Source of the DNA: Bhargavaea sp. CC-171006
Lineage (GTDB): Bacteria > Bacillota > Bacilli > Bacillales_A > Planococcaceae
Direction of reading: 5' to 3'
DNA: 52,559 nt
Assembly: GCF_009761675.1 (NCBI RefSeq)
Contig: NZ_QUZH01000031.1
Location: forward strand, 1-52,559
The notes beneath the pieces were generated by a model. It was given only the letters and a program-made list of their open reading frames with translations. It did not search any database and was not told where the DNA came from. Below, one piece after another: positions 24,223-47,827 of the stretch (positions within the stretch are counted from its first letter, which is position 1; each line of letters starts with the position of its first letter). A program made the translations under genes and the position numbers.

Positions 24223-24366
24223 TTTTGTCATTCATCGGCTTAGTTTCGTCATTCAACCAATTAATTTCGTCATGCGTGACCGTTTTCACAGCGAATGACG
24301 AAACTGGAAGGCGGAATGACGAGATTGCAGTCTCCAATGACGAAATTGCGAATCGGAATGACGAAA
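24223..24366. repeat. Inverted array B of GAATGACGAAA units (3 reverse, 4 forward)
   Basis: Reverse copies (TTTCGTCATTC type) at 24223, 24244 and 24265. Forward copies at 24293, 24314, 24335 and 24356. Within each half the spacing is exactly 21 bp. Spacer sequences differ. The array lies between the divergent starts of the membrane gene (24140) and the HIT gene (24391), so it would be transcribed in or sit beside both promoters. Its forward spacers CTGGAAGGCG and TTGCGAATC also occur in array C. Confidence 0.92.
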
Positions 24367-24390
24367 TCAATTTTGGAAGGGGAAAAGTCT

Positions 24391-24801
24391 ATGCCGTCCT
24401 GTATCTTTTGCGACATCATCAATCGGAAAGCCGAAGCAAATATCGTCTATGAGGATGAACTTGTCTGCTGTTTCCTGGACAAGTTTCCGATCAACCCGGG
24501 ACATATTCTTGTCGTGCCGAAGCGGCATGCTGTGGAGTTCACCGAGGTGGATCCGAAGAGCCTGCAGTCGGTGATTCTCGCTGCCCAAAAAGCCGCGCGG
24601 GCAATCGAGTCAACCCTCGGTACCGACGGCATCACCGTCATGCAGAACAACGGGGCATTCAAGGATGTGGAGCATTATCATATGCACATAGTTCCCCGAT
24701 ACATAGGAGACGGATTCGGCTGGACGGAGCCGGAGATCGACGCAGCTACGGTCGACTTTCACTCCTTAGAAAAGAAGTTCAGGGGAGCGATGGCAGAATG
24801 A
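24391..24801 (+). CDS. HIT-family nucleotide-binding hydrolase
   Basis: 136 aa from ATG 24391 with GGAAGGGG upstream, just after array B. Earlier in-frame ATGs belong to the repeats. Typical HIT protein: CxxC-type Cys4/Cys7 (CIFCDII), KFPINPGHILVVPKRH, the QNNGAF strand and the catalytic triad HYHMHIVPR. Such proteins cleave adenylylated or dinucleoside compounds. It overlaps the following GNAT gene by 4 bp (ATGA), forming a two-gene unit bracketed by arrays B and C. Confidence 0.9.
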   Translation: MPSCIFCDIINRKAEANIVYEDELVCCFLDKFPINPGHILVVPKRHAVEFTEVDPKSLQSVILAAQKAARAIESTLGTDGITVMQNNGAFKDVEHYHMHIVPRYIGDGFGWTEPEIDAATVDFHSLEKKFRGAMAE

Positions 24802-25301
24802 CCATGCAAAGCGCCCGATGTGTATTGGCGCCGCCGGCTGCAGAGGACCTGAATAACGTCAAATTGCTTTACGGGGATGAGCAAGTACGCGCCTATCTCG
24901 GCGGAACAAGAGAGGCGACTGAAGTGGAGAAGGCCTTCGCTGACATGCTCGAGAATCCTGACGGTTGCTGGGTGATCCGGCAGCAGAATGACGGGGAATT
25001 CATCGGAACCATTTCACTGGATCTCCACCATGACGGGGAGGCGCTGGAGATTTCCTATCAGCTTCTGCCTGAGTTCTGGGGCAGGGGGTATGGAACCGAA
25101 GCAGTCAGGGAAGTGATCCGACATGCCTTCCGCAACCTTGGCCAGGAGCGCTTGCTCGCGGAAACCCAGGCCGCCAACACCGCCTCCCGCCGGCTGCTGG
25201 AGCGGCTGGGAATGAAAGAGGAGCGGCGAGTTAAACGGTTTGGGGAGAAGCAGGTCATCTATTCGCTTAGCCGGGAGAGTTTTGGGATGGATGAATCGTA
25301 G
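24798..25301 (+). CDS. RimJ/RimL-like GNAT acetyltransferase
   Basis: 167 aa, intact. Pieces of the fold: FIGTISLDLHHDG, LEISYQLLPEFWGRGYGTEAV (acetyl-CoA pyrophosphate loop GRGYG) and LLAETQAANTASRRLLERLGM. Translationally coupled to the HIT gene by ATGA. It probably acetylates a small molecule or an N-terminal amine. Array C follows it immediately, and a terminator lies after that, so the array is within the transcript. Confidence 0.82.
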   Translation: MTMQSARCVLAPPAAEDLNNVKLLYGDEQVRAYLGGTREATEVEKAFADMLENPDGCWVIRQQNDGEFIGTISLDLHHDGEALEISYQLLPEFWGRGYGTEAVREVIRHAFRNLGQERLLAETQAANTASRRLLERLGMKEERRVKRFGEKQVIYSLSRESFGMDES

Positions 25302-25305
25302 CCGA

Positions 25306-25470
25306 TTTCGTCATTCGAGCTCTAGATTTCCTCATTCATCGGCTAAATCTCGTCATTCACCCGATTAATCTCGTCATTCATGGCTGTCTCTAAAGCGAAT
25401 GACGAAACTGGAAGGCGGAATGACGAAATTGCCGTTCCGAATGACGAAATTGCGAATCCGAATGACGAAA
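25306..25470. repeat. Inverted array C of GAATGACGAAA units (4 reverse, 4 forward)
   Basis: Reverse copies at 25306, 25327, 25348 and 25369. Forward copies at 25397, 25418, 25439 and 25460. The period is exactly 21 bp in both halves, with a 17-bp centre. Several spacers match array B (CTGGAAGGCG; TTGCGAATC; CATCGGCT in the reverse half), so B and C derive from one element placed on both sides of the HIT-GNAT pair. Confidence 0.93.
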
Positions 25471-25486
25471 TTGATTCCGGAATTGA

Positions 25487-25528
25487 AGAAGCCGTCCGGC
25501 ATCCGCCGGACGGCTTTCCTCTATTTTC
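25487..25528. terminator. Bidirectional terminator after array C
   Basis: Perfect stem AAGCCGTCCGGC-atcc-GCCGGACGGCTT. Serves the HIT-GNAT transcript and the opposing small gene. Confidence 0.9.
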
Positions 25529-25532
25529 TCCA

Positions 25533-25655
25533 TTACAGCCAATCTTTCACATAGGCAAGCAGGCCGAGTATTGCACCGCCCACGGCGCCAAAGAAGATGT
25601 AGTAGCCGGTGTGGATTTCAGCTGGGCTGAACGATTTGTTCTCATTCTCCAACAT
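25533..25655 (-). CDS. Small single-helix membrane protein downstream of ytoQ
   Basis: 40 aa on the complement: a short polar N-terminus (MLENENKSFSPAEIHTG) followed by one hydrophobic helix rich in Gly and Ala (YYIFFGAVGGAILGLLAYV). GGAGGG lies about 7 nt upstream of the ATG. It starts 13 bp after the ytoQ stop on the same strand, so the two are likely co-transcribed. Not recognised by name. Confidence 0.65.
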   Translation of the reverse strand: MLENENKSFSPAEIHTGYYIFFGAVGGAILGLLAYVKDWL

Positions 25656-25668
25656 CGGAACCCTCCGC

Positions 25669-26109
25669 TCAATCCAAGATGTACTTGAGCGCCTTGATTG
25701 CCTGGTCGCAATTTTCCACGGTGGCGTTCGCCTTGCGGGAAAGTTCCTTCAGCGCGTGGATGTGTTGCTCCGGACGGATGAGGATGAGCGGCTTGCCGAG
25801 CGCGACCGCTGCACTTGCGTCCATTGCGGTGTTCCACTGCTTGTATTTCTCGCCGAACAGGGCGATAACGAGATCAGCCTTCTGCATGAGCACTTCCGTG
25901 CGCAGGTTGTTGAAGCTGGATGCTGCCCAGTCCTTGTAGAACGCACCCGGCTGCTCACCAATGATTTCTTCACCGATATTGTCTGAGCGGTCATGGTTCT
26001 CCTGCGGCCCGACAAAGTCAATCGGCATCTTTAGGGCAGCCGCCTTTTCCTTGATCTCATCACGCCAGGACGAATGGATCTCCCCGGCCAAATAAACAGT
26101 CAAACGCAT
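25669..26109 (-). CDS. ytoQ: YtoQ-family protein
   Basis: 146 aa from ATG 26109 with GGAGGGGATAGGT upstream. Begins LTVYLAGEIHSSWRDEI, the YtoQ signature, with VGPQENHDRSDNIGE and ALFGEKYKQWNTAMDASAA later. The fold resembles nucleoside 2-deoxyribosyltransferases: a Rossmann-like core with a conserved Gly-Glu pair at the nucleotide-binding end. Biochemical role is not established for the family. Followed by a tiny membrane-protein gene. Confidence 0.85.
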   Translation of the reverse strand: MRLTVYLAGEIHSSWRDEIKEKAAALKMPIDFVGPQENHDRSDNIGEEIIGEQPGAFYKDWAASSFNNLRTEVLMQKADLVIALFGEKYKQWNTAMDASAAVALGKPLILIRPEQHIHALKELSRKANATVENCDQAIKALKYILD

Positions 26110-26222
26110 ACCTATCCCCTCCGCAGAAAATTCAGTCTGCTTCATTGTATCATGAGTCACCGAACAATTGCTAAAATGGAACCAGCCACAGGAGGCGTGA
26201 CGGGGATAAAAGGGGGATGGGC

Positions 26223-27107
26223 ATGGCGGTTACAATCAGGCCAGCAGCTGAACAGGTGGAGTCTTGGGTCGATCAATTTGTTCCTGAGAAGGATCTATTT
26301 TTCATGGATGATTCCATGTTGGAGGAGTTGGATGCGTATCTGGACGGAGTCCTGATCACGCCGCAGAAAGAATTTTCCGCGCACTCTACCTACAGTCAGA
26401 TCCAGATGAACAACAGCTATATGTATTGGACACTCTCCAAGCAGGCCACGTCTGTCATTGTGGCCCCGCCGGAATGGCTCGAACAATTGCCCGGCCAGGA
26501 GAGGCGGACTCTTCTATTCAATCAGTGCAGGATGGGCAAGGGTATGATTTTTCCAATCGGATTGTTTCCTTCTGAAGAGGGGATTCCTGACGACCATATC
26601 GTGGAAGTGGAAGAGGGGACCTTTGTCGTCATACGGAAAGGAATGTGGAAAGGGCTGCCGCATCCGGTAAAGGCACTTGCCATTCAGGCGTATGCCCGGA
26701 TGTGGGACAAATGGGAAGCTGCAAAAGTGCCTGAAGAGACACCGGTCCATATCAGGAAGTATGCCAACCGTTTTACAGCCATCCCCGGAAGCAACTGCTT
26801 CGCTGCTGCCCTGTATGCCGTAACAGAACAAGAATGGATGATTCATGAATGGATTCATCCCGGAACGCTGATGAACGGATTGCGGCGGGCCGGTTATTCT
26901 CCGGCAAAAGGGGATTTGATGCAGGGTGATGTTATCACGTATGTGGATCAGGCTGGTGAGATCCAGCACGCAGCCTATCACATCGGAAATCACATGATAT
27001 TCAATAAGAATGGCCAGACGTTCTTTAATCCTTGGAAGATCGTCAGTTTGGAGGAGCTCAACGTGGAGTGGGCTCAGTATCAGGTCAGAATTCATCGCAA
27101 GAGCTGA
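26223..27107 (+). CDS. Probable NlpC/P60-like cysteine hydrolase, non-secreted
   Basis: 294 aa from ATG 26223 with AAAAGGGGG upstream. No signal peptide. The C-terminal 110 residues fit a papain-like NlpC/P60 layout: candidate nucleophile in GSNCFAAALYAV, then GDVITYVDQAG, IQHAAYHIGNHMIFNKNG with candidate His, and FFNPWKIV. The N-terminal two thirds are unique, with a Trp-rich centre (MYWTLSKQATSVIVAPPEWL). Substrate unknown; a cytoplasmic peptide or ester hydrolase is possible. The catalytic assignment is inference from pattern only. Confidence 0.55.
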   Translation: MAVTIRPAAEQVESWVDQFVPEKDLFFMDDSMLEELDAYLDGVLITPQKEFSAHSTYSQIQMNNSYMYWTLSKQATSVIVAPPEWLEQLPGQERRTLLFNQCRMGKGMIFPIGLFPSEEGIPDDHIVEVEEGTFVVIRKGMWKGLPHPVKALAIQAYARMWDKWEAAKVPEETPVHIRKYANRFTAIPGSNCFAAALYAVTEQEWMIHEWIHPGTLMNGLRRAGYSPAKGDLMQGDVITYVDQAGEIQHAAYHIGNHMIFNKNGQTFFNPWKIVSLEELNVEWAQYQVRIHRKS

Positions 27108-27149
27108 TGCAATGGTATGGTCCAACGTCTGATTCGGGAGGTGTCGGTG

Positions 27150-27230
27150 GTGAACATAAACTATCGTCACCTGGTGGTTGCCATTTTGATCTTTGGCGGT
27201 GTCTGGACGAATCAGAAATTGAAAAAATAA
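27150..27230 (+). CDS. Possible 26-aa membrane peptide
   Basis: GTG 27150 to TAA 27228-27230, with GGGAGGTG upstream. One hydrophobic helix (LVVAILIFGGVW) is flanked by NINYRH and a basic tail QKLKK. The stop overlaps the stem of a strong terminator, as expected for a real terminal gene. It lies 42 bp after the NlpC-like gene on the same strand. Short, so confidence is limited. Confidence 0.5.
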   Translation: MNINYRHLVVAILIFGGVWTNQKLKK

Positions 27231-27274
27231 ATAGACAGCACAGATTCCGGGCGGGATCTGTGCTGTCTATTTTG
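27229..27274 (+). terminator. Long-stem terminator
   Basis: Seventeen-bp stem AAATAGACAGCACAGAT / ATCTGTGCTGTCTATTT followed by T. Confidence 0.92.
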
Positions 27275-27332
27275 TAACGGAAGTGAAAGCCCTAGCTACC
27301 GCTAAGCATGAGAATGCAGTGTCGAACCAAAG

Positions 27333-27362
27333 TAAAAAGACCGCATATTCTGGCGGTCTTTC
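27333..27362 (-). terminator. Terminator of the siderophore operon
   Basis: Stem AAGACCGC / GCGGTCTT with T-rich flank on the minus strand, just past the end of the FhuF-like gene. Confidence 0.8.
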
Positions 27363-27374
27363 CGCATTTCCGTT

Positions 27375-28097
27375 CTACGATTGAACCCGGGGGGCGATCG
27401 GACATCCATTACAGCAATTCCGAGTTTTGAGCATGTAAGACAGGCAACAAGTGCTCCGCCCCAATTCGGCCGTTCCTGCAAATGCAGTCAGGGGGTTTTC
27501 TACTGAGGCTCCGAAGGCCGACGCAGGGGCCTCATGGAAGATATAATGCAAGTCATCCATGGCTAACCGTCTCAAATCAGGAATTGCGGAAATCTGATTA
27601 TAGATCCAATGAACGTATAGCGCTGTATTTTCCCACATAATCGATTCCTTTAGGCGGGTCTGTTCCTTCAGTCTGCGGATCACAGGGGATAGTGTTTCGC
27701 CAAATACATGCTCCACAATCTGTGCACGCCACTTTGTCCGTGACCCTACCGGCTCTTCTATGGAGAAGTTCCCAAAGTCGAACACGGGAAGCCAGAGCTC
27801 TTCCCGGGACTCATCGACTAATTTAAATTCCCGCAAATCGACACGGAGCCGTTTCCCGAGTACGGTCATCGCATACAGGTGAATCACCGCATAAAAGGCC
27901 AGACGTTTCGTCAGAATGGAGGCGGTCACACAGGCGTTTGGTGCTTCCAATCTCCGGGTGAGGCGGTCGAGGACATCGGGTAACTGTTCAGGATCTGCAA
28001 TGGATAAATAATCAACCGTTTCTCCTGCTGCATCCAGTTTCAGGCGGTATCTCGACAGTTGCTCGATTTCCTGTTTATTGAGCAATGGGTACGGCAT
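27375..28097 (-). CDS. FhuF-like siderophore iron reductase
   Basis: 240 aa. The C-terminus carries the FhuF [2Fe-2S] ligand pattern, CC near residue 219 and CCNGC at about 229-233 (STCCLSYMLKTRNCCNGCP). The middle is helical, with ALYVHWIYNQ. FhuF-type proteins reduce ferric siderophores in the cytoplasm to release iron. Its start overlaps the ATPase gene by 23 bp, and it is the last gene of the Fur-regulated minus-strand operon, which fits the role directly. Confidence 0.85.
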   Translation of the reverse strand: MPYPLLNKQEIEQLSRYRLKLDAAGETVDYLSIADPEQLPDVLDRLTRRLEAPNACVTASILTKRLAFYAVIHLYAMTVLGKRLRVDLREFKLVDESREELWLPVFDFGNFSIEEPVGSRTKWRAQIVEHVFGETLSPVIRRLKEQTRLKESIMWENTALYVHWIYNQISAIPDLRRLAMDDLHYIFHEAPASAFGASVENPLTAFAGTAELGRSTCCLSYMLKTRNCCNGCPIAPRVQS

Positions 28098-28905
28098 TCA
28101 GTTTCCCGCCTTTTAGGATGCAACGGCCTTTTCCGTGTGGAATACAGAGAGGTGTGCCGAAAATCGGGTCGGTTGTGATATTGCAATCCATTCCGAATAC
28201 GTCCTGCACCAGCTTGCAGCTGACGACTTCTTCCGGTTTCCCCTGTGCATAGATCGTTTGATCACGAATGGCGATGACGTTGTGTGCGTATCGGCAGGAG
28301 AGGTTCAGATCATGCAGGACCATCACGATGGTCCTGCCTTCATTTGCATTCAGCTCATACAGGAGATCCAAGATTTCAATCTGGTGGGCCATGTCAAGGT
28401 ACGTGGTGGGCTCGTCCAGAAGAATGATATCGGTATCCTGTGCGAGTGTCATGGCAATCCATGCCCGTTGGCGCTGGCCGCCTGACAGTTCATCCACTTG
28501 CCGGTCCTTAAATTCAGTCAGGCCGGTTGCGTCAAGGGCTTTTTTCACAATTTCCTCATCCCTTTTTGACCATTGCTTCAGCCAGCTCTGATGCGGGTAT
28601 CGCCCCTGTTTGACAAGCTGAAGAACAGACAGGCCTTCCGGAGGTACCGGTGACTGCGGAAGCATCGCCATCTTCCGCGCGACTTCCTTCGTCGGTAGCT
28701 TGGCAATATCTGATCCTGAAAGCAGTACTGAACCGCTTTTCGGCTTCAGCAGCCTTGCGATGGATTGAAGCAGCGTCGATTTGCCGCAACCGTTGGCCCC
28801 GATGAATACCGTGATTTCCCCTTTGGGAATTGCCAAATCCAGATCATCTATAATGATCCGGTCACCATAGGAAAGGGTCAGGGAATCCGTTTGAATCACG
28901 TTCAT
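28075..28905 (-). CDS. Siderophore ABC transporter ATPase
   Basis: 276 aa from ATG 28905 with AAAAGGAG upstream. Complete ATPase: Walker A IGANGCGKST (about 35-44), Q-loop MLPQSPVPPEG, signature LSGGQRQRAWIAM, Walker B DIILLDEPTTYLD and H-loop VLHDLN. FecE/FhuC/YusV type. Powers uptake through the two FecCD permeases encoded upstream. Ends inside the FhuF-like gene. Confidence 0.93.
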   Translation of the reverse strand: MNVIQTDSLTLSYGDRIIIDDLDLAIPKGEITVFIGANGCGKSTLLQSIARLLKPKSGSVLLSGSDIAKLPTKEVARKMAMLPQSPVPPEGLSVLQLVKQGRYPHQSWLKQWSKRDEEIVKKALDATGLTEFKDRQVDELSGGQRQRAWIAMTLAQDTDIILLDEPTTYLDMAHQIEILDLLYELNANEGRTIVMVLHDLNLSCRYAHNVIAIRDQTIYAQGKPEEVVSCKLVQDVFGMDCNITTDPIFGTPLCIPHGKGRCILKGGKLNAVPIAQ

Positions 28906-28925
28906 TTGAGGTTCGGCTCCTTTTA

Positions 28926-29981
28926 TCATGAATTTCTTGTCTTTAGCAGAAGATAAATAAAGTACGGTGCTCCAATGGTCGCGGTGAACACGCCGGCCGG
29001 CACTTCGAGCGGAAGGAAAAGCGTCCGGCCGATCATATCCGCAAATAGGACAAGGAGGCCGCCGATCAGTGCAGCAGCCGGAAGCAGTGCGCCATAGGTG
29101 CCCCCGACCAACCTTCTTGCCATATGGGGTGCCATCAGGCCAACAAAGCCCATTGTTCCGCCAAAAGCAACGGCCGCACCGACAAGTGCAGTACTGATGA
29201 CCAGCATGAATAGGCGCTGTGCCTGTACACGGCCGCCAAGCCCGGTGGCCAATTGCTCACCAAGCTCCTGGATATTGAGCTTGGAGGCTGTTATAAATGC
29301 TGTCAGCAGCAATACAGTGACCAGAGGAACGAGCACCTGGACGTTCCCCCAGTTAGAGCCATTGACACTTCCTGTAATCCAAATATTGGCCTGGGCCGCA
29401 CGATGGATAGGCCCCATGATCATCAGGAAAGTCGTAAGCGCCTGCATCAGAGCCGAAACGCCAATCCCGATTAATACTAGCCGCACAGGAGAGATGCCGT
29501 CTTTATAGGCCAGAAAATAGACAATCGATGCTGTCAGCAATGCACCGAGAAATGCAGCCAGTGATATCCAGTTCACACTGACAGTGAGTGCATTGGATTC
29601 GTTGCTGAACACTGCCAGAAATCCGACGACCGCTGCACCTGCACCACCGGTCACCCCAATGATGTCAGGGGAAGCAAGCGGGTTGCGGATCATTCCTTGT
29701 AAAACGGCACCAGCCGCAGCCAGCGCCATACCTACAAACACGGCTACAATCGTTCTCGGCAGACGAAATTCGGTGACCACCAAGCGTTCCAAATCGGAAC
29801 CACCGCCGAAAAACACATTCAAAACGTTCATCGGTGACACCTTTACATCGCCTAAACCTGTGCTGGCTACAATGGCTGCCCCCATGATTAAAAAGAGTGT
29901 GGTAATTGTTAATGCCGCCTTTTTCTCGGTAAGGACGGAGATGCGTCCTCCTAAGATCCTAAGGCTTTTATACTTTCTCAT
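28926..29981 (-). CDS. FecCD-family siderophore permease 2 (YfhA-like)
   Basis: 351 aa, about nine to ten membrane helices. FecCD hallmarks: EFRLPRTIVAVFVGMALAAAG, GMIRNPLASPDIIGVTGGAG and GGTMGFVGLMAPHMARRLVG, the last being the ATPase-contact loop. Overlaps the end of the first permease gene by 4 bp. It forms a heterodimeric channel with that permease and resembles the B. subtilis YfiZ/YfhA pair, which handles citrate-hydroxamate siderophores. Confidence 0.92.
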   Translation of the reverse strand: MRKYKSLRILGGRISVLTEKKAALTITTLFLIMGAAIVASTGLGDVKVSPMNVLNVFFGGGSDLERLVVTEFRLPRTIVAVFVGMALAAAGAVLQGMIRNPLASPDIIGVTGGAGAAVVGFLAVFSNESNALTVSVNWISLAAFLGALLTASIVYFLAYKDGISPVRLVLIGIGVSALMQALTTFLMIMGPIHRAAQANIWITGSVNGSNWGNVQVLVPLVTVLLLTAFITASKLNIQELGEQLATGLGGRVQAQRLFMLVISTALVGAAVAFGGTMGFVGLMAPHMARRLVGGTYGALLPAAALIGGLLVLFADMIGRTLFLPLEVPAGVFTATIGAPYFIYLLLKTRNS

Positions 29982-30982: not shown

Positions 30983-31019
30983 ATTTCAAATGTACCTTCC
31001 TGTTGGTCTTGACCGCTCA

Positions 31020-31048
31020 AGTGTAATAAATCTGGCATCTTGTGTCAA
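31020..31048 (-). promoter_or_regulatory. Promoter of the permease operon
   Basis: Read on the minus strand: TTGACA (31043-31048), 17-bp spacer, TACACT (31020-31025). Fur box 1 adjoins the -35 side. Confidence 0.75.
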
Positions 31049-31052
31049 TGAC

Positions 31053-31071
31053 ATTGAAAATCATTATCAAT
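31053..31071. promoter_or_regulatory. Fur box 1
   Basis: ATTGAAAATCATTATCAAT fits the 19-bp Fur inverted repeat (7-1-7 pattern) closely. It lies between the divergent promoters and can control both. Confidence 0.88.
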
Positions 31072-31077
31072 ATAATA

Positions 31078-31106
31078 TTGACAGTCTTCTCTGTGGTTTG
31101 TATGAT
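31078..31106 (+). promoter_or_regulatory. Promoter of the binding-protein gene
   Basis: TTGACA (31078-31083), 17-bp spacer, TATGAT (31101-31106); a near-consensus sigma-A promoter. Confidence 0.85.
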
Positions 31107-31116
31107 AGGGTTGTTA

Positions 31117-36643: not shown

Positions 36644-36715
36644 GTGTACTTTCAAGAGCCGGTTGTGTACTTTCGGGGACGCTTGTGTACTTTCGCGGTC
36701 CGTTAGTGTACTTTC
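36644..36715 (+). repeat. Array F of GTGTACTTTC units (4 copies)
   Basis: GTGTACTTTC at 36644, 36665, 36685 and 36706, spaced 21, 20 and 21 bp, with variable GC-rich spacers. Located after uvsE and 20 bp before a GGACCATC terminator. Array G has the same layout. Confidence 0.92.
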
Positions 36716-41501: not shown

Positions 41502-41600
41502 CCGCATCCCCCCGGAAAAACGTGTTAACCCAACTATACTGCAAGGACAGAAGGATAAGGAAAGGGAATTGTTGCAATTTTTATACATTGGATAGCTTCC

Positions 41601-41699
41601 GAATGTGAAATCTGGGTGGCCGAATATGCAAACTGCGGCTCCAACAAGCAGACTCGCGGTCCTAACGTGCAATCTCAAGCACCGAACGTGCAAACTCGC
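41601..41699. repeat. Array H of GTGCAAACTC-type units (5 copies)
   Basis: Related segments start at 41601, 41622, 41642, 41663 and 41684 (GAATGTGAAATCT, GAATATGCAAACT, CAACAAGCAGACT, TAACGTGCAATCT, GAACGTGCAAACT), spaced 20-21 bp. Located in the divergent region between the MFS gene and the DUF2975 gene, next to a terminator. Confidence 0.85.
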
Positions 41700-41710
41700 C
41701 CGTCAGCCCA

Positions 41711-41750
41711 AAAGCGTGCTGCTGCCCGACCAGGGTGCAGCACGTTTCTT
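41711..41750 (+). terminator. Terminator after array H
   Basis: AAAGCGTGCTGC...GCAGCACGTTT with one bulged G. No gene ends upstream on the plus strand, so it terminates only the array region or an unannotated transcript. Confidence 0.75.
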
Positions 41751-41849
41751 GTGTGAAGAAAAAGTTTTTCGAATTCCAATCATTATTTATTGATATTCGA
41801 TATACATTTATCTATAATCGAGAAGAATCAACGGGAAGAGGTGTGCTTG

Positions 41850-42329
41850 ATGAAGAGGGGATCTACATTGTTCCTGAGGCTCACTTTGATTGTGATGGGC
41901 CTGCCGGTGCTTGCGGTCGTCCTCCAGCTTGGCTTCGAAGTATCGCTTGCGCTGATCCGCGGGGAAGCACTGCCGTTTGCTGACTGGGGACTATTCGCCG
42001 TTTTGGCCGGATCGGCAGTACCTTATTTCATGGCACTGCGTGAGACTTGGCGGCTGTTGGTCATGATCGACCACGGGGAGGCGTTCTCGGAGCCGTCTAT
42101 CCTTGCATTAAGGAAGATCCGGCGCTGTGCCGCGATCGTCGGCGTCATGTTTGCATTCGGTCTGCCTGTGTTTGCTGCCCTCGCACGAATAGAAGACGCT
42201 CCTGGCCTCGTCGTCATCGGCATGGGCATCGTCGGGATTTCAGTCGTAATCGCCGTTTTCTCGGCGGTGCTCGGGCATCTTCTGAAACAGGCCATCTCCA
42301 TCCGTGCGGAAAATGAATTCATTGTCTGA
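41850..42329 (+). CDS. DUF2975 membrane protein, copy 1
   Basis: 159 aa from ATG 41850 with GAGGTG upstream. Four hydrophobic helices. The family pattern GEAFSEPSILALRKIRRCA, EDAPGLVVIGMGIVGISVVIAVFSAVLGHLLKQAI matches the DUF2975 (YoaS-like) family. Copy 2 follows 29 bp after its stop, then a YozG-type regulator, as in the B. subtilis yoaS-yozG arrangement. Function unknown. Confidence 0.88.
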   Translation: MKRGSTLFLRLTLIVMGLPVLAVVLQLGFEVSLALIRGEALPFADWGLFAVLAGSAVPYFMALRETWRLLVMIDHGEAFSEPSILALRKIRRCAAIVGVMFAFGLPVFAALARIEDAPGLVVIGMGIVGISVVIAVFSAVLGHLLKQAISIRAENEFIV

Positions 42330-42358
42330 TCCATCAATTAAGAAACGAGGTGCACGAT

Positions 42359-42850
42359 ATGAAAAAAGGTTCTACGTTACTTCTGAGGCTTGCAGTCATC
42401 GTAATGGGCATCCCGGTGCTCCTGATTGCGGTACTGATCCTTCCGAAGATTGTCCTGGAAGCAATGGGGTATATCGGCGAAGGGATGCAACTGCCTTCGA
42501 TTGTCCTCGGCCTGATGGCCATCATGTACATTTCGGCCATCCCGTTTTACATGGCTCTTTACCAGGCATTGAAGCTCCTAGGCTACATCGACCGCAACGA
42601 GGCGTTCTCGGAGCTGTCGGTCACGTCGCTCAAGATAATCCGCAACTGTGCCGTCACGATCAGTGCACTGTATGTGGCCGCGCTTCCGCTCATCTTCATG
42701 ATCGCCGAATGGGATGACGCCCCGGGCCTCGCCCTGATCGGCCTGGTCATCGTCGGCGCGTCGCTCGTGATCGCCGTCTTCGCCGCGGTGCTCCAGCGGC
42801 TGCTGAAACAGGCGATCGACATCAAACAAGAAAACGAACTGACGGTCTGA
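42359..42850 (+). CDS. DUF2975 membrane protein, copy 2
   Basis: 163 aa from ATG 42359 (GTG 42350 possible) with GAGGTG upstream. Four helices. NEAFSELSVTSLKIIRNCAVTIS and DDAPGLALIGLVIVGASLVIAVFAAVLQRLLKQAI align with copy 1, so a tandem duplication. It precedes the YozG-like regulator by 12 bp, forming a three-gene operon. Confidence 0.9.
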   Translation: MKKGSTLLLRLAVIVMGIPVLLIAVLILPKIVLEAMGYIGEGMQLPSIVLGLMAIMYISAIPFYMALYQALKLLGYIDRNEAFSELSVTSLKIIRNCAVTISALYVAALPLIFMIAEWDDAPGLALIGLVIVGASLVIAVFAAVLQRLLKQAIDIKQENELTV

Positions 42851-42862
42851 GGAGGGAGTCAA

Positions 42863-43072
42863 ATGCCAATCATTATTAATCTCGACGTCATGCTCGCCAA
42901 GCGCAAAATGAGCGTCACCGAACTCTCCGAAAAAGTCGGCGTCACGATGGCCAACCTGTCCATCCTGAAAAACGGAAAGGCCAAGGCCGTCCGCTTCTCG
43001 ACGCTTGAAGGCATCTGCAAAGCGCTCGACTGTCAGCCGGGGGACATTCTGGAGTATAGGGAAGAGGAGTAA
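42863..43072 (+). CDS. YozG-like Cro/C1 helix-turn-helix regulator
   Basis: 69 aa with GGAGGG upstream. Helix-turn-helix of HTH_26 type: MLAKRKMSVTELSEKVGVTMANLSILKNGKAKAVRFSTLEGICKALDCQPGDIL. Typical partner of DUF2975 proteins; the pair may act as a membrane-sensing switch. Very small, binding DNA as a dimer. Array G follows its stop. Confidence 0.92.
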   Translation: MPIIINLDVMLAKRKMSVTELSEKVGVTMANLSILKNGKAKAVRFSTLEGICKALDCQPGDILEYREEE

Positions 43073-43094
43073 AAGCGGGCGTATTTGTCGCATA

Positions 43095-43188
43095 GTGTAC
43101 TTTCGGGCACGGATGGTGTACTTTCAAGGACTCTTGGTGTACTTTCGCGGACCTTTAATGTACTTTCGTGAGACGATTGTGTACTTTC
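43095..43188 (+). repeat. Array G of GTGTACTTTC units (5 copies)
   Basis: Copies at 43095, 43116, 43137, 43158 (ATGTACTTTC) and 43179, each exactly 21 bp apart. Ends 24 bp before a GGACCATC terminator. Same architecture as array F, 6.4 kb away. Confidence 0.93.
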
Positions 43189-43212
43189 ACCACATATAGA
43201 GGAATCATGAGG

Positions 43213-43245
43213 AAAGGGACCATCCATCGCGGATGGTCCTTTTGG
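43213..43245 (+). terminator. GGACCATC-type terminator after array G
   Basis: AAAGGGACCATCC-atcgc-GGATGGTCCTTTT. Confidence 0.9.
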
Positions 43246-43359
43246 TAACTCAATTTATTAGCGAGTTATAAATAAAATCAGGAAATACAGGACCTTTTTG
43301 GTATAATCTATCTGTATGCCGTTGTATTACTTCGTGTAGCTAAGCCTGGGGGGGGTTAG

Positions 43360-43857
43360 ATGAAAAAAGGTATTAAAATCGTTATTAACATAAGCTTTGT
43401 GTGTTATTTAGTTGCGTTGGCCGTTTTGCTGTTCTTAAGTTCCAGAGGCTTTTTATGGTCCGGTTTAACGTGGATGGAATACATCAGAAACTCCTCGAAT
43501 TTTGTACCGTTTAAAACTATAAGTACATATGTTACAAGGTTTTTCGATGGCAGCATGAATAGGGATATTCCTATAAAAAATCTCTTCGGTAACTTACTGC
43601 TGTTCTTGCCAATGGGAATCTATCTGCCTTACTACATAACAAAGATAAATAAAATAAGAGATTTAGCGATTGCGATGAGCGTCATTTTAATTTTGATTGA
43701 AGTGGTGCAAGTGGTTACTAGAAGAGGAAGCTTTGATATTGATGATTTCATTCTTAACATGCTTGGTGCTTTGATGGGATTTGGGATCTGGAAAACTAAG
43801 ATTATACAGAAGCTGTTGAGGCAGAACCTTCAGGGTCAGGTTAATGAAAATTTTTAA
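43360..43857 (+). CDS. VanZ-family membrane protein
   Basis: 165 aa, about four to five helices. VanZ motifs: NSSNFVPFKTI, NLFGNLLLFLPMGIYLPYYI, VILILIEVVQVVTRRGSFDIDDFILNMLGALMGFGIW. VanZ-like proteins give low-level teicoplanin or lipopeptide tolerance by an unclear mechanism. GGGGGG before the ATG. Distinctly AT-rich relative to flanking genes, consistent with horizontal transfer. Confidence 0.9.
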   Translation: MKKGIKIVINISFVCYLVALAVLLFLSSRGFLWSGLTWMEYIRNSSNFVPFKTISTYVTRFFDGSMNRDIPIKNLFGNLLLFLPMGIYLPYYITKINKIRDLAIAMSVILILIEVVQVVTRRGSFDIDDFILNMLGALMGFGIWKTKIIQKLLRQNLQGQVNENF

Positions 43858-43931
43858 GGAACGGACTTGTGTATTCTCATGGCCTCTCAGTGAAGCCTAA
43901 TATAAACAATAATAAACAGGAGCGTACGCGC

Positions 43932-44408
43932 ATGATCCCTTTCTTTGAATACAACTGGCAGGTAAGAGACGAGTGGTTTGCCTGGTGCAGGCAGCTGCCT
44001 GAAGAAGAGCTGGTCAGGTCCAGAACCGGAGGCGTGGGCAGTATCTTGAAGACGCTATTTCATATCATTGACGTCGAATACAGCTGGATCCGGGGAATTC
44101 AGGACAAGGAAGATATCGTGTTCGACTTTGCCGACTTCGATACGCTTGAGAAAGTACAATCCCTTTCTGCCCGATGCAGAAATGAGGTCGTAGAGTTTCT
44201 GAAGGTTAAAGGAGAGGGGCGGAATGAGGAAGTGGTACGTGTCCCGTGGGAGGATGAGGTGTACACAGTGGATGAGGTGTTGCATCACCTCATCGCACAT
44301 GAAATCCACCACATCGGACAGCTCTCGGTCTGGGCGAGAGAACTTGATCTCACTCCTGTCCCCGCACATTATGTGGGACGTTCATTAAAGCCGCTCTTCT
44401 CTTATTAA
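43932..44408 (+). CDS. DinB-family protein
   Basis: 158 aa from ATG 43932 with AGGAGCG upstream; the longer frame start at 43869 has no ribosome site. Four-helix DinB fold with the metal-binding His triad: His in LKTLFHIIDVEYSWI (about 46) and HEIHHIGQL (about 132-137). VPWEDEVYTVDEVLHHLIAHEIHHIGQL is diagnostic. Probably a thiol-dependent metalloenzyme; induced by DNA damage only in the founding member. Ended by a GGACCATC terminator. Confidence 0.85.
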   Translation: MIPFFEYNWQVRDEWFAWCRQLPEEELVRSRTGGVGSILKTLFHIIDVEYSWIRGIQDKEDIVFDFADFDTLEKVQSLSARCRNEVVEFLKVKGEGRNEEVVRVPWEDEVYTVDEVLHHLIAHEIHHIGQLSVWARELDLTPVPAHYVGRSLKPLFSY

Positions 44409-44421
44409 AAGAAATACAGCA

Positions 44422-44456
44422 AGAAGGGACCATCGATTGCCGATGGTCCCTTTTTC
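44422..44456 (+). terminator. GGACCATC-type terminator after dinB-like gene
   Basis: AAGGGACCATCG-attgc-CGATGGTCCCTTTTT. Here the terminator precedes the repeat array rather than following it. Confidence 0.92.
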
Positions 44457-44470
44457 ATGCGATTAAGGTT

Positions 44471-44565
44471 GAATGACGAAACTGCGGCCACGAATGACGA
44501 AATCGGCGTCACGAATGACGAAACCGGAGCCGCGAATGACGAAACCGCCGCCGCGAATGACGAAA
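44471..44565 (+). repeat. Array D of GAATGACGAAA units (5 forward copies)
   Basis: Perfect copies of GAATGACGAAA at 44471, 44492, 44513, 44534 and 44555, exactly 21 bp apart. Spacers are GC-rich (for example CCGCCGCCGC). Lies between convergent gene ends, beside a GGACCATC terminator. Strongest of the single-direction arrays. Confidence 0.95.
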
Positions 44566-44579
44566 CCGCCGCCCCTGAC

Positions 44580-45146
44580 TTAAGACGGTTCTCCCGGCAA
44601 CTGCTCCCGTCCGGACCTCCCCGGAAACTCGATCACCTGCGCAGAAGCAGGCCGCTCGTACAGGCTCATCAGCTCCACCGGTGTCTTCCTCAAGCGGTAG
44701 CTCATCTTCACGCGGTCCCACTCCGCCCCGAACTTGATTTCGTATTCATCCCGGAGCGCGCGCATCATGAATTCCAGATACGTCATGTCGTTCCGGTTTT
44801 CCCTTGAATACACCTTCTCCGGTGTGATGATCCGGATGCCCCGGGCCATCATCAGGCCCATCATCGTGTCCCAGTCGAACTTGATTCCTAGTCCAAATGA
44901 ATGGATGTGCCGCGTAACGATGGCATCGAATTCGCCCATGTCGGCCCACCTCAGCAGTTCCATCGCGGCTTCGTTCCGCTTGTAGCTGCTGGCTTCGTAA
45001 AAAAGATCATAGTCACAGCGCCCCTCGACCACCCGCAAGAGGAGCTCTTCATTGTCGTCGGCAGATGCATGGAGCGGCGCGCGGCCCCAGTAGGTCGAAC
45101 GGACATATACGGCAGCTTTTCGGATCGGCGGCAGTTGGATGGTCAT
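44580..45146 (-). CDS. Stand-alone serine-recombinase-like N-terminal domain
   Basis: 188 aa. Aligns in outline with the resolvase/invertase catalytic domain: AVYVRSTYW in place of YxRVS..Q, MGEFDAIVTRHIHSFGLGIKFDWDTMM for FDxLVVxxLDRLGR, GIRIITPEKVYSRENRNDMTY for GVxxxS, and EYEIKFGAEWDRVKMSYR for the E-helix. Typical Arg and Ser residues are partly replaced. No zinc ribbon or recombinase domain follows. Could be a domesticated or regulatory derivative. No att sites are visible. ATG at 45146 with GGAGGAGAT upstream. Confidence 0.55.
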   Translation of the reverse strand: MTIQLPPIRKAAVYVRSTYWGRAPLHASADDNEELLLRVVEGRCDYDLFYEASSYKRNEAAMELLRWADMGEFDAIVTRHIHSFGLGIKFDWDTMMGLMMARGIRIITPEKVYSRENRNDMTYLEFMMRALRDEYEIKFGAEWDRVKMSYRLRKTPVELMSLYERPASAQVIEFPGRSGREQLPGEPS

Positions 45147-45283
45147 AGCGGATCTCCTCCAATAGATTCTGAGATGAACCTAGTGTGGGAGATTCGGCGG
45201 GGGATTATACACCCATACGGCTAACTGATTTCGTACATTTCGCGCGAAAATAATCGGAACGTTGGTACAACACGCAGTACACT

Positions 45284-45319
45284 AGACCGCCAAATCGGCT
45301 ACGACTTGGCGGTCTTTTT
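45284..45319 (+). terminator. Terminator-like hairpin in the 45147-45390 gap
   Basis: Stem AGACCGCCAA / TTGGCGGTCT followed by T5. No gene ends upstream on this strand, so it may isolate the promoter at about 45347 (TATGGTAAAATGG). Nothing else is seen in this gap. Confidence 0.75.
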
Positions 45320-45390
45320 CGATGTGCAATGTATGGATTTTCCTGCATATGGTAAAATGGCGGAAAGGAAGGGCGAAGTGGGGGATTCAG

Positions 45391-45810
45391 TTGGTCAGGT
45401 TTATTGCTGCCATAGCATCATCGGTCATCTTAACGGCATTGCTGAGCTCGCTCCTATACACACCGAAAGATGAGCTCGAGCATGGGGTTTATCATTTCGG
45501 GTGGACCGAGTTATTTATCATTAACGTCATGTATATCGCTCCGATTTATTTAACCTTGGGGATTGGCGTGTCGTGGACAGCAGCCCAATACACTCGCAGC
45601 AAGTTTAAGAAACTGCAGGCCTATGTACTCAGCGGAGCCGGTAACGCAGGGTTGATCGCAATTTTGGCAATGCAGGATGACTTCGTTCTTCCAGCGCTCC
45701 TACTTTCCATCTTAATTGGAACTGTCGTTGCGCTGGTTTATTGGATTGTCGAGGTAGTGTTGGAACGGCTCTTTAAGAACAAGCGACACGTGCATCAGGC
45801 TCGGGCATAG
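45391..45810 (+). CDS. Four-helix membrane protein
   Basis: 139 aa from TTG 45391, chosen for the GTGGGGGA site upstream; the longer frame begins inside the probable promoter. Four clear hydrophobic segments (about 3-22, 39-60, 75-94, 100-127). Not recognised. AT-rich, in a nest of small membrane proteins. The next gene starts 38 bp after its stop. Confidence 0.6.
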   Translation: MVRFIAAIASSVILTALLSSLLYTPKDELEHGVYHFGWTELFIINVMYIAPIYLTLGIGVSWTAAQYTRSKFKKLQAYVLSGAGNAGLIAILAMQDDFVLPALLLSILIGTVVALVYWIVEVVLERLFKNKRHVHQARA

Positions 45811-45847
45811 CCGGTCCGGAGAAGTGATTGGGGAGGGGGAAGGTTGG

Positions 45848-46045
45848 ATGGACGCTGATCGCAGGTATACCTTCTTCGGTATAGGTTTGTTGGTGTATGG
45901 GACCATTGTAAACTTGCTGTTCGGGCCTGGCCCATTTGTGCCTTCCATATGGTCTTTTATAACCGTAGCCATTGTAGGGGTGATGGTTGATGTTGTGAGA
46001 TTCCTCTTTAGAAAAATCAAATCGATAAAGAAAAAGAATTCTTGA
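45848..46045 (+). CDS. Two-helix membrane protein
   Basis: 65 aa from ATG 45848 (GGGGGAAGG upstream). Two hydrophobic helices (TFFGIGLLVYGTIVNLLF; FITVAIVGVMVDVVRFLF) and a Lys-rich tail (KIKSIKKKNS). No family named. Likely co-transcribed with the preceding gene. Confidence 0.6.
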   Translation: MDADRRYTFFGIGLLVYGTIVNLLFGPGPFVPSIWSFITVAIVGVMVDVVRFLFRKIKSIKKKNS

Positions 46046-46098
46046 CCCGAATAAGACGACTACGCAACCATCTTCTTCTGTATATCATAGGAGTCATT

Positions 46099-46281
46099 CT
46101 ACGATGCATGATCTTTCCTGAAAAAAAGAAACACGTTAAAGGCGCCAAACAGGATGGTTAAGGTGAATAAAGGTACATGGAAATTTCTCGGGTCAACGGT
46201 GAAATAGGCAATGACCAATCCGATTAGGTAGATCCAATAGCCAATGTTAAAAAGCCTTTTCTTTTGGCGAGACAACCTCAT
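46099..46281 (-). CDS. Two-helix membrane protein
   Basis: 60 aa. ATG 46281 abuts AAGGGGGA, so TTG two codons in (46275) may be used. Basic N-terminus RQKKRLF, two helices (YWIYLIGLVIAYFTV; LFTLTILFGAFNVFLFF), short tail. Similar in size and layout to the neighbouring small membrane proteins. Unknown. Confidence 0.55.
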   Translation of the reverse strand: MRLSRQKKRLFNIGYWIYLIGLVIAYFTVDPRNFHVPLFTLTILFGAFNVFLFFRKDHAS

Positions 46282-46320
46282 TCCCCCTTATAAGTTGGAG
46301 AAGCCTTTTTGTTTGAGAGA

Positions 46321-46575
46321 TCATGAATTCTTTTCGTATTCGTGTTTCCTCCACATACAATATTCGTAGAAAAACTGAATCGACGGGAGGGTGAGAAGGA
46401 AAAGACCAAACAGTATATTGGGTTCCTCTTTCCATTCGATCAAATAATAGCCTGCAATTAAGATTAGGATGAAGAATGGAAAGAGGGAAAGGGTCCGGAT
46501 CATTTTCCTTCTGTGAGTTAATTTCGCGTAAAAGAACTCACGGCCTCGATCCACTTTTTCCGTCCCTAAATACAT
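46321..46575 (-). CDS. Two-helix membrane protein related to 46764 family
   Basis: 84 aa with ATG 46575 assumed; the Shine-Dalgarno is weak and GTG 46554 is possible. KLTHRRKMIRTLSLFPFFILILIAGYYL then EWKEEPNILFGLFLLTLPSIQFFYEYCMWRKHE. The plan (charged N-end, helix, W/E/P loop, helix, YxY..W tail) matches the genes at 46764 and 47411, so a divergent paralogue is likely. Confidence 0.55.
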   Translation of the reverse strand: MYLGTEKVDRGREFFYAKLTHRRKMIRTLSLFPFFILILIAGYYLIEWKEEPNILFGLFLLTLPSIQFFYEYCMWRKHEYEKNS

Positions 46576-46763
46576 ACGATAACAGGGCGGATAAGAGAAT
46601 CCCGGCGGCAAGAATAATCACCAGATACGTCGTACTCACTTTGTCCTTCCTTCACGTCAAACTGTCTGCCCATCGTAACATATTTATCCATATGACAAAT
46701 TGATTTTCTGGAAATTTATATGGGTTTTATGAATAATGGTAAAGTGTATGTGAGGGTGGCGGC

Positions 46764-46997
46764 ATGAAAAAGGAGTTCAAGATTTTCTATTGGGAGCTGG
46801 ATGCCAAAGGAAAGTTCATCCGATCGCTTTGGAGTGGCTTTTTAGCTCTGCTATTTCTGTACTGGGCTGTTTGGTTTGCGCCTGAACATCCTTCGTTTGA
46901 CAATATATTTTTTGAAGAGTGGGTTCCACTTTTATTTACGCTGCTTTACTTCGCAGACTTAGTATATAAGTACAGAAAGTGGAAAAAAGAATCATAA
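46764..46997 (+). CDS. Two-helix membrane protein, founder of a local duplication
   Basis: 77 aa, GAGGGTGG upstream. MKKEFKIFYWELDAKGKFIRSLW, helix, WFAPEHPSFDNIFFEEW loop, helix, DLVYKYRKWKKES. Function unknown. Nearly the same DNA recurs at 47411-47656 without a start codon. Confidence 0.75.
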   Translation: MKKEFKIFYWELDAKGKFIRSLWSGFLALLFLYWAVWFAPEHPSFDNIFFEEWVPLLFTLLYFADLVYKYRKWKKES

Positions 46998-47065
46998 AGC
47001 AAGTTCTAACGTCCAATTTACCAGCACTCGCATTTAGGGGAGTACATAAAAATGGGGATGTAGCT

Positions 47066-47350
47066 ATGTGGATCATATTAGGGGTTCTCGCGATAGCCGC
47101 AACGATTACGAATCTTTATTTGTACAAAGCAGGGAAGGATTATAAGCTTGCCATGGCGATGGGGTTATCGCTCACGGCTTTAACCCATTGTGCAGAATAC
47201 AGCCTGGTATCCGGCTGGGTGAAAGCTGAAGATTGGGCAGCTCTAATGGATGTCGTGCCTGGCATGGAACGGGCATTATGGGTATTGACCGTCGCCTCGA
47301 TCTTGATTAATAGCGCACCGATTCTTTTGGAGCTAAAAGGTAAAAAATGA
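47066..47350 (+). CDS. Three-helix membrane protein
   Basis: 94 aa from ATG 47066 with GGGGA 7 nt upstream. Hydrophobic segments near 1-18, 30-45 and 70-90. AEYSLVSGWVKAEDWAAL between helices. Not recognised. It lies between the two copies of the duplicated two-helix gene, so either it was caught inside the duplication or the duplication spans it. Confidence 0.65.
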   Translation: MWIILGVLAIAATITNLYLYKAGKDYKLAMAMGLSLTALTHCAEYSLVSGWVKAEDWAALMDVVPGMERALWVLTVASILINSAPILLELKGKK

Positions 47351-47410
47351 TTGCTCAATGTTTGAGAAACTGAGTGGCGGCGCCGAGGAGGATGAAACGG
47401 GGGTGTTGGT

Positions 47411-47656
47411 ATCAAGAAAGATATTAAGATTGGCTACGGGGAACTGAATGCCAAAGGAAAGTTCATCCGAACGCTTTGGGGTGGCCCTTTAATTCTGGCG
47501 TTTTTGTACTGGGCAGTTGCAGAGGCGGAAGGCCATCCGGATTTTGATAATGTGTACTTTAGGTTCTGGATACCACTTATTGCTACTCTGGCCACTCTCG
47601 GTGACATCGTGTATGAGTATCTAAAGTGGAAAAAAGATGAGAAAACTAATCAATAA
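47411..47656 (+). pseudogene. Duplicate of the 46764 gene lacking a start codon (ATC in place of ATG)
   Basis: An open frame of 81 codons, IKKDIKIGYGELNAKGKFIRTLW to EYLKWKKDEKTNQ, aligns residue by residue with the 77-aa protein at 46764. The position of its ATG is ATC here (47411-47413). An in-frame TGA lies 18 bp upstream with no ATG, GTG or TTG between. The Shine-Dalgarno-like GGGGGTG is kept. The DNA is highly similar across GGAAAGTTCATCCGA and neighbours, so the copy is recent. Either a pseudogene by start loss, or one that uses a rare ATC start. Confidence 0.8.
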
Positions 47657-47746
47657 GGCCCCGGAATTGGAACACGCCGGAAAAGCCTGGAAACGGATTT
47701 GTTCTGTGACTTCCCCAGCAGGGAAAACGACCGCGGATTCCGGCGG

Positions 47747-47827
47747 TTTCGTCATTCGGGCACTCAGTTTCATCATTCAACGCCCCGATCTCGTCATTCG
47801 TCCTTTTCCGGACCGCGAATGACGAAA
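47747..47827. repeat. Array E of GAATGACGAAA units (3 reverse, 1 forward)
   Basis: Reverse copies at 47747, 47768 and 47789 (21 bp apart) and one forward copy at 47817. Lies between convergent ends (duplicate gene and the small 47938 gene). The remaining sequence 47657-47746 and 47828-47886 shows no gene. Confidence 0.88.

Follow-up and report, generated by a model that had tools for sequence, protein, structure and literature searches.

Phased arrays in the window

The window, the whole 52,559-nt stretch of Bhargavaea sp. CC-171006 DNA analysed here, carries arrays (A to H) in which a short core recurs about every 21 bp. Array A (7529..7627) alternates AAAGACCA and AAGAGTCCA in half-units of ~21 bp that make up a 42-bp pair, as read from TRF and from the sequence, and is flanked by the terminator-like hairpins of convergent genes. 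Its core type is also present in the orthologous stretch of two relatives (G005 and G007) and recurs in the own genome at C8:152585. Array B (24223..24366), with divergent genes on either side, consists of 3 inverted and 4 direct GAATGACGAAA units around a 28-bp centre, based on the sequence, the GAATGACGAAA search and an alignment of the orthologous locus. Array C (25306..25470), for which an alignment of six species was also used, has 4 inverted and 4 direct GAATGACGAAA units and the same 28-bp centre; it starts 4 nt past the stop codon of an acetyltransferase-like gene, and a hairpin comes after it. The short array D (47747..47827) has 3 inverted units and 1 direct GAATGACGAAA unit, again with a 28-bp centre. 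The other four are on the forward strand. Array E (44471..44565) is a one-sided run of 5 GAATGACGAAA units inside a convergent gene pair. Array F (36644..36715) holds 4 GTGTACTTTC units at steps of 21, 20 and 21 bp, with uvdE upstream, then a terminator-like hairpin, and array G (43095..43188) holds 5 GTGTACTTTC units, with a small HTH gene before it and a terminator-like hairpin after it. Array H (41601..41697), backed by a five-species alignment, comprises 5 units of GAAYGTGCAAACTC type with a hairpin plus T-run after them.

GAATGACGAAA is found 24 times in the window with at most one mismatch (1.57 expected; none of 100 shuffles reaches 24). GTGTACTTTC is found 12 times (1.55 expected), nine of these inside arrays. 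Taken alone, GTGCAAACTC is not significant in the window (2 matches, 2.97 expected); array H is nevertheless supported by its five drifted units, which occupy the same place in five species. TRF called period 21 at 24222, 24293, 25332, 25396, 36635, 43089, 43095 and 44471, and period 42 at 7529, corresponding to the two alternating half-units of array A; in the window it reported neither array H nor the short array at 47747.

An earlier note, made from the letters of this DNA, had described these arrays as one geometry with interchangeable cores. The arrays are real, occur throughout the own genome and are present in Bhargavaea relatives, and the combination of a single geometry with several unrelated cores is borne out. 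The period, which the note called exact in most arrays, needs correcting by one 20-bp step in F and one, by eye, in H. Its account of their structure needs correcting for B, C and D, which are two-sided (inverted units, a 28-bp step, direct units), and for A, which alternates two related cores. The note knew of no described element class of this kind. Rfam at gathering thresholds returned only a tRNA in the window, and the open-access literature yielded no account, for Bhargavaea or Planococcaceae, of arrays phased at 20/21 bp. None of the three outcomes that the note had named as refuting its view came about.

Period and cores across the genome and the genus

A core-blind detector applied to 410 kb from eight Bhargavaea genomes returned 49 arrays at period 21 and, for the remaining periods between 12 and 40, 4 in all. 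In 853 kb of the own genome, where each arm of a two-sided array counts separately, the same detector scored 43 detections at period 21. Shuffling left no array in any of 10 replicates, and in both scans the period is far from random. The 853 kb also contain a separate period-20 class (16 arrays with other cores), by which the note's account has to be amended. In the own genome 162 pairs within 3 mismatches were found at dozens of places on many contigs, against 0 in the control. At least four cores other than GAATGACGAAA, including those of window arrays A and F, recur at separate loci of the own genome, which makes trans-acting factors plausible. A shared 'GAR' or 'YTC' anchor across cores looked suggestive by eye but was dropped, as by our own estimate chance alone would place one in about half of such words.

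Architecture of the commonest class

For GAATGACGAAA, the commonest core, 309 of 320 same-orientation steps measure 21 bp, and 48 of 51 divergent double arrays have a 28-bp centre; no convergent GAATGACGAAA step appeared in this step count. The unit logo reads YGAATGACGARAYYR and then runs into bases with almost no constraint, the conserved part being ~11-15 bp long. Two-sided arrays reach 4+4 units, and the outermost unit of their arms is distinct (C at position 13 in 85%, vs 26% in the central unit). This divergent higher-order design was absent from the original description, the interpretation of which is supported in part. One-sided forms make up 18 of 69 GAATGACGAAA arrays, one of the 18 coming from a Bacteroidales bin, and GTGTACTTTC arrays have one side only, except for an overlapping match in L061 that is probably spurious.

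Position relative to genes

With an unmasked gene caller, 45 of the 49 arrays are intergenic, in agreement with the placement first proposed; at the B and C loci or orthologues of these, the remaining four run into predicted ORFs that look like over-extended calls. Convergent genes flank 43 of 84 period-21 arrays, vs 85 of 563 background gaps. Among two-sided GAATGACGAAA arrays, 23 of 45 lie between convergent genes and 4 between divergent ones, while convergent surroundings are less common in the period-20 class (4 of 17, with 12 co-directional). The adjacency to terminators that had been noted is visible by eye at a few loci and is better put as a bias to gene 3′ ends, mainly those of convergent pairs. 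Such a bias could arise simply because insertions are least harmful between 3′ ends.

A cognate gene close to the arrays was considered and rejected: in a sample of the own genome, no gene family recurs within two genes of the arrays except ABC transporter ATPases. No cognate protein was found, and no replication gene was seen among the small neighbouring proteins examined. A polar roadblock, for which one-sided GAATGACGAAA arrays in co-directional gaps should uniformly face the polymerase, was rejected, given that 2 arrays were for and 3 against (the count omits one Bacteroidales row, also against).

Divergence and turnover at orthologous loci

At three orthologous loci (C, E and F), cores diverge by 9.5%, spacers by 38.9% and flanks by 33.5%; the spacers drift through point changes. 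Once pairs of records from one genome are excluded, 66 of 91 orthologous comparisons between genomes retain at least three cores (66 of 83 if only the six carriers are compared), while 25 of the 91 have fewer than three left and 15 have none. Unit number varies: orthologues of the F locus have 5 units in G003, 2 in G001, 1 in G007 and none in G005, and the E locus has, by eye, 5, 1, 6, 6, 6 and 5 units in G000, G003, G006, G007, G005 and G001, respectively. Since counts range so widely between orthologues (from 1 to 6 at E), a precise dose is not required. Among the eight genomes array G is present at its place only in G000, and G007 bears a different core there. Identical, recent units occur at C22:61038-61132 in G000 and at C5:143191-143242 in G003. 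Alignments of two loci at which some species have no array revealed no clean empty site.

Alternative origins

The two-sided arrays might be the left and right ends of a transposon of the DDE type (IS21 or Tn7-like), or else small non-autonomous elements made up of two ends alone, each end carrying several transposase sites. We consider this unlikely, although an IS21 origin had to be considered strongly because IS21 ends resemble the arrays in design. According to PMC10122671, IS21 ends carry L1-L2/R1-R2 repeats with two conserved blocks ~10 bp apart. Like the arrays, they are built of direct repeats spanning about two turns of the helix, each element with a core of its own. Searches for istA in 121 family genomes and for istB in the own genome, the period detector on 30 IS21 loci and end alignments were brought to bear on the question. 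By reading, the ends of 16 of 31 IS21 loci of the same family show a similar several-repeat design with other cores and steps of ~21-24 bp. The recurrent two-sided plan, its 28-bp centre and its distinct outermost unit would suit copying of a whole element. Also in favour of this origin, a leader is found ahead of 9 of 10 array starts in the sister genome G004, starts at the insertion sequence being left aside. Three carriers do have IstA matches (three in G001, one of them intact-looking; one in G006; one in G007, E = 9.9e-4). Against this, IstA (NF033546) is unmatched in the GAATGACGAAA carriers G000, G003 and G005, three of the six, and also in G002 and G004. The 31 IS21 loci (118,554 bases) contain no GTGTACTTTC, no GGACGACTC and, within one mismatch, three GAATGACGAAA, about chance level by our own estimate. 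An IS21 origin was rejected: these searches found no IS21 element with the array cores, the step and the two-block repeats of IS21 differ, and the own genome is without istA. PF01695 matches in the own genome reach 50 bits (4 of 5 above the Pfam cut-off of 24.1); as control genomes match too, one match overlapping dnaA, we take them for related AAA+ proteins. Among the eight Bhargavaea genomes, we found no rve (DDE) or IS21 transposase that all array carriers have in common, and G005 has arrays yet no rve match of any kind, so that no resident rve transposase maintains its arrays and DDE transposases in general were set aside. Flanks of the 51 two-sided arrays showed no consistent repeat indicative of a target-site duplication (flanks matched at 0.43 at best, shuffled flanks at 0.49 on average; old duplications could have decayed), and the cores have diverged little at places common to species, not merely in moving copies.

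Other readings fare worse. That the arrays act as RNA in 3′ untranslated regions, the two-sided ones folding into long hairpins that stabilise or terminate messages, appears distinctly improbable. Several arrays lie, by eye, between a stop codon and a terminator-like hairpin, and array C (4+4) folds far better than its shuffles (z = −7.95), but the inverted cores alone explain that fold. One-sided GAATGACGAAA arrays cannot form a long hairpin, nor can those with GTGTACTTTC, the one probably spurious match apart; array A sits between two terminator-like hairpins; nothing about RNA evidently calls for an exact step of 21 bp; and the mixed orientation of arrays to transcription and to the upstream gene points to DNA rather than RNA. 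Neutral minisatellites, in which slippage yields functionless 21-bp tandem units, seem scarcely credible: identical recent units and unit numbers that differ between species would fit, but neutral decay would be even, while divergence in the cores is about a quarter of that in the spacers, and slippage alone would neither favour only 20 and 21 bp nor bring one core, with a divergent centre of constant length, to dozens of loci. We attach very little probability, too, to chromosomal decoys or remnants of iteron-type sites for plasmid or phage replication proteins. Iterons are typically tandem sites set at a helical step, their cores specific to the replicon, and centromere arrays of plasmids are likewise tandem phased sites with a replicon-specific core. 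The Bhargavaea arrays, however, are chromosomal and occupy dozens of loci, and with an E-value limit of 0.1 array C matched none of 72,556 plasmid and 50,697 phage records, in a search that the variable spacers make not very sensitive. A viral origin was likewise discarded, as two scans of viral contigs returned only four and one stretches of exact matches, two units each, in surroundings that look unrelated.

Comparison with known repeat systems

PMC1525189 presents REP/BIME elements as repeats scattered outside genes, past gene ends and often where two genes converge. Insertion sequences target them, and some of these sequences interrupt the repeat always at one point; binding by gyrase, Pol I and IHF is cited there as well. 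By that account, the arrays share with REP/BIME/REPIN of enterobacteria and Pseudomonas their dispersed extragenic location behind genes, their convergent bias and their use as insertion-sequence targets. They differ in that, by reading, GAATGACGAAA and GTGTACTTTC are not palindromic, units within an arm being direct repeats at a 21-bp step, and in their several unrelated cores. A RAYT/REP origin was rejected, since the RAYT domain (Y1_Tnp, PF01797) is unmatched in all 8 Bhargavaea genomes and matched in 5 of 14 control genomes. CRISPR arrays also combine a conserved repeat with a variable spacer of constant length, but CRISPR repeats are ~23-47 bp long, whereas the conserved part here is shorter and the spacers drift by point changes between orthologues. 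Minisatellites (VNTR) differ in that array units do not evolve evenly (core 9.5%, spacer 38.9%).

Proposed function

Tandem protein-binding sites fit both the helical step and the confinement of constraint to the core, and the proposal of the earlier note that the sites lie on one face of the DNA is supported to this extent at the sequence level. We give about an even chance to the reading that the arrays are helically phased binding sites of putative host proteins with an extragenic architectural or insulating role. In such a scheme, each array would be a series of double-stranded DNA sites whose core of ~10-15 bp a sequence-specific protein would recognise; the 21-bp step (two helix turns) would place bound proteins on one helix face, with neighbours in contact, and the two-sided form, up to 4+4 units, would allow a symmetric complex. 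Arrays may lengthen when whole 21-bp units are duplicated, and may also be copied to new places, persisting mainly behind genes, above all between convergent ones, where selection would keep core and spacing while spacers drift. Their most likely role would be to hold or shield DNA where converging transcription raises torsion, a function like that of REP/BIME elements minus the palindromes. The number of cores would require many proteins, or one that changes fast.

As a tentative conjecture that may well prove wrong, we suggest that the arrays form an undescribed class of Planococcaceae chromosomal elements, phased at 21 bp (20 bp in the second class) and with an exchangeable core. New cores would arise, amplify, be held by selection in 3′ spaces and be replaceable in situ, driven by a diversifying, unnamed family of DNA-binding proteins. 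If the binding-site reading holds, a Bhargavaea genome would bear many conserved binding platforms (the 43 detections in 853 kb), and a Gram-positive, non-palindromic counterpart of REP/BIME elements would be added. The two-turn step and exchangeable cores would make it testable whether bacteria insulate convergent genes by protein arrays and how binding specificity and many sites co-change within one genus.

A genome-specific core and its insertion sequence

Cores are species-specific and have been amplified, as the sister genome G004 illustrates: its own core, GGACGACTC, gives 123 pairs there and 0 in seven other genomes. An insertion sequence of G004 sits inside GGACGACTC arrays in all nine copies examined and lies 7 nt past the core in seven of eight measurable copies. 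This fixed register in one genome adds a case of repeat-targeted transposition.

A 21-bp period in the window and beyond

The earlier note had described intergenic arrays in which a conserved core and a variable spacer recur about every 21 bp, and arrays A, B, C, F, H, G and E, with the short array at 47747-47827, are present in the window as claimed. With up to one mismatch, the core GAATGACGAAA (arrays B, C, D and E) occurs 24 times in the window against 1.57 expected; GTGTACTTTC (F and G) gave 12 matches against 1.55 expected, nine of them inside arrays. Although the count for GTGCAAACTC, the core type of array H, was not significant when searched alone in the window, array H gains support from its occurrence at one and the same position in five species.

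To assess periodicity we used a detector that presupposes no particular core or period: it calls three or more units sharing a 9-base core, allows no more than one mismatch from one unit to the next, and counts the arms of two-sided arrays separately. Run on the window together with its counterparts in seven relatives (410,559 bases), it returned 49 arrays at period 21; the remaining periods between 12 and 40 gave four in total. The proposed 21-bp period is also non-random genome-wide: 852,559 bases of the own genome, a 26% sample, gave 43 detections at period 21, and ten shuffles of that sequence gave none. The same scan returned 16 detections at period 20 and harmonics at periods 40 (10), 42 (16) and 60 (7); no other period between 10 and 63 gave more than two.

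Arrays B and C (24223-25470) flank a HIT-family-like gene and an acetyltransferase-like gene, both named by eye. Their right halves have spacers in common, which suggests gene conversion between the two arrays.

Architecture of GAATGACGAAA arrays

In a set of 69 sequence-distinct GAATGACGAAA arrays that includes one from a Bacteroidales bin, neighbouring units of like orientation stand 21 bp apart, a two-turn spacing, in 309 of 320 steps. Fifty-one arrays are two-sided with divergent arms, most commonly as 3+4 (18) or 4+4 (16) units around a centre step of 28 bp (48/51); no convergent step between units was found in the 69. In each unit, some six almost unconstrained bases come after YGAATGACGARAYYR. 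Unit composition shifts with rank in 83 two-sided arms: C at position 13 rises from 26% of central to 85% of outermost units, and A at position 10 from 78% to 97%, so a unit's place in the array matters. Array C folds into a strong hairpin (z = -7.95) because its cores are inverted, a structure that one-sided arrays cannot form.

Gene context

With genes from our own gene caller, array positions penalised, and with arms and orthologues counted separately, 84 period-21 arrays fell into 43 convergent, 32 co-directional and 9 divergent gaps, against 85, 313 and 165, respectively, for 563 background gaps of at least 100 bp. Sequence-distinct two-sided GAATGACGAAA arrays were convergent in 23 of 45 cases and divergent in four, and 45 of 49 arrays remained non-coding when the caller was run without the penalty. 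The arrays lie mainly behind genes, terminator positions having been read by eye. Their orientation relative to transcription is mixed, which favours a role at the DNA level rather than the RNA level.

Distribution across genomes

The arrays are not confined to the window, since the own genome holds 162 GAATGACGAAA pairs at 21 bp with up to three mismatches (control, zero) and pairs within one mismatch occur in six of eight genus genomes; none of 33 genomes outside the genus has them (41 genomes searched first). An exact three-unit pattern, scanned over 84,980 species in a set that may omit records very near the own genome, matched 24 stretches of Bhargavaea and, outside the genus, one Bacteroidales bin. 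The latter carries a five-unit TTTTTTCGTCATTCACYGRAG array of period 21 (L236, 4175-4269), apparently unrelated judging by composition. Of 261 family genomes, six carry GTGTACTTTC pairs within one mismatch: five belong to the genus and one to another genus.

In the two genus members devoid of GAATGACGAAA, the period-21 arrays are built on other cores. Within the family but outside the genus, 18 stretches, each from a different genome (354,319 bases in all, including L109, chosen because of a prior match), yielded five period-21 arrays and one of period 20. Beyond the family but within the class, 31 stretches of 30 genomes (620,000 bases) were scanned, and a single genome gave arrays, two at period 21. 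Beside dnaA, on the window's arm, GAATGACGAAA pairs within one mismatch are absent from about 215 kb of G000:C11 (own genome, its placement on that arm being an assumption), 295 kb of G003:C7 and 370 kb of G005:C11.

A period of exactly 20 bp marks a separate class, with cores TAAGTCCGATT, CATGYGGCAAATC, TTACTCCAAAT and CCTTATTGCAACT and 16 detections in 853 kb of the own genome (contigs C6, C8 and C19, e.g., C19:340043-340294 and C8:46280-46433; loci L179-L216). The core-blind detector found none in the window. Gene context was convergent in 4, co-directional in 12 and divergent in 1, so the convergent bias of the period-21 arrays is absent.

Core constraint and possible roles

Between species, divergence at loci C, E and F is low in the core only: 351/3,697 comparisons (9.5%), against 1,367/3,511 (38.9%) in spacers and 2,168/6,476 (33.5%) in flanks. 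Every ordered species pair enters the tally, which makes the comparisons non-independent, and the core is somewhat favoured, as a unit was picked if it had up to two mismatches in one member of the pair and alignment is anchored at the cores. Twenty-seven arrays have an orthologous place in another genome; at least three cores are kept in 66 of 91 between-genome comparisons (66 of 83 within the six carrier genomes); the remaining 25 retain fewer than three, 15 of these without any.

The spacing is shared by several cores, and other cores occupy the same gap in other species: GAGTGCTTCG-type units at the B locus in G006 and G001 (by reading), TGATCTTTCG at the H locus in G001 and GAGTTTGAAGATTA at the G locus in G007. 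These cases are only consistent with exchangeable cores, since dense arrays make such coincidences not rare.

Proteins may bind the arrays and, once bound, would contact one another along one DNA face, possibly managing or insulating the DNA between converging genes. The strongest rival takes the arrays for transposon ends, because the recurrence of one two-sided form at dozens of loci implies copying; yet no rve or IS21 transposase was found in all carriers, array ends show no duplication, and constraint at places common to several species is left unexplained. Protein binding and transposon ancestry can both be partly true, the arrays having spread like a small mobile element and been retained as putative binding sites.

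Birth and spread of arrays

Amplification is species-specific in G004, another Bhargavaea genome (listed completeness 98%, contamination 7%), whose core GGACGACTC forms 123 exact pairs at 21 bp there and none in the seven other genus genomes. Its array spacers are, by reading, still alike between loci, and a leader of type TGGAAATAAAACCT precedes nine of the ten array starts that have no insertion sequence at that point. These arrays look like a young family, and the GAATGACGAAA arrays like an old one with drifted spacers and retained cores. New units arise by tandem duplication, as the identical spacers at G000 C22:61038-61132 illustrate.

A 1,265-bp insertion sequence of G004, encoding a 310-residue rve protein, is taken for a putative IS3-type element from its size, ends and domain. 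Nine of its ten best-scoring copies were examined (L163, L168, L173, L177 and L262-L266), and all nine adjoin a GGACGACTC period-21 array on at least one side, though L173 and L177, neighbouring copies with one flank masked as N, may be one event. Insertion is in register: the element begins 7 nt past the core in seven of eight measurable copies and 9 nt in the eighth. Where a regular core lies close by on both sides, which is the case in five copies, the spacer exceeds its usual length by three bases, the amount expected of a 3-bp duplication; among these copies the three bases are identical only in L262. This repeat-targeted insertion parallels ISPsy8, an IS3-type element that invariably interrupts REP at a single point and with a 3-base repeat (PMC1525189).

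For two other insertion sequences, both of the own genome, 12 loci with one flank each (L267-L278) contain no array. By eye, these elements often appear to lie in terminator-like hairpins, and many of the 12 flanks read show an A-run and a GC-rich half-stem at the junction.
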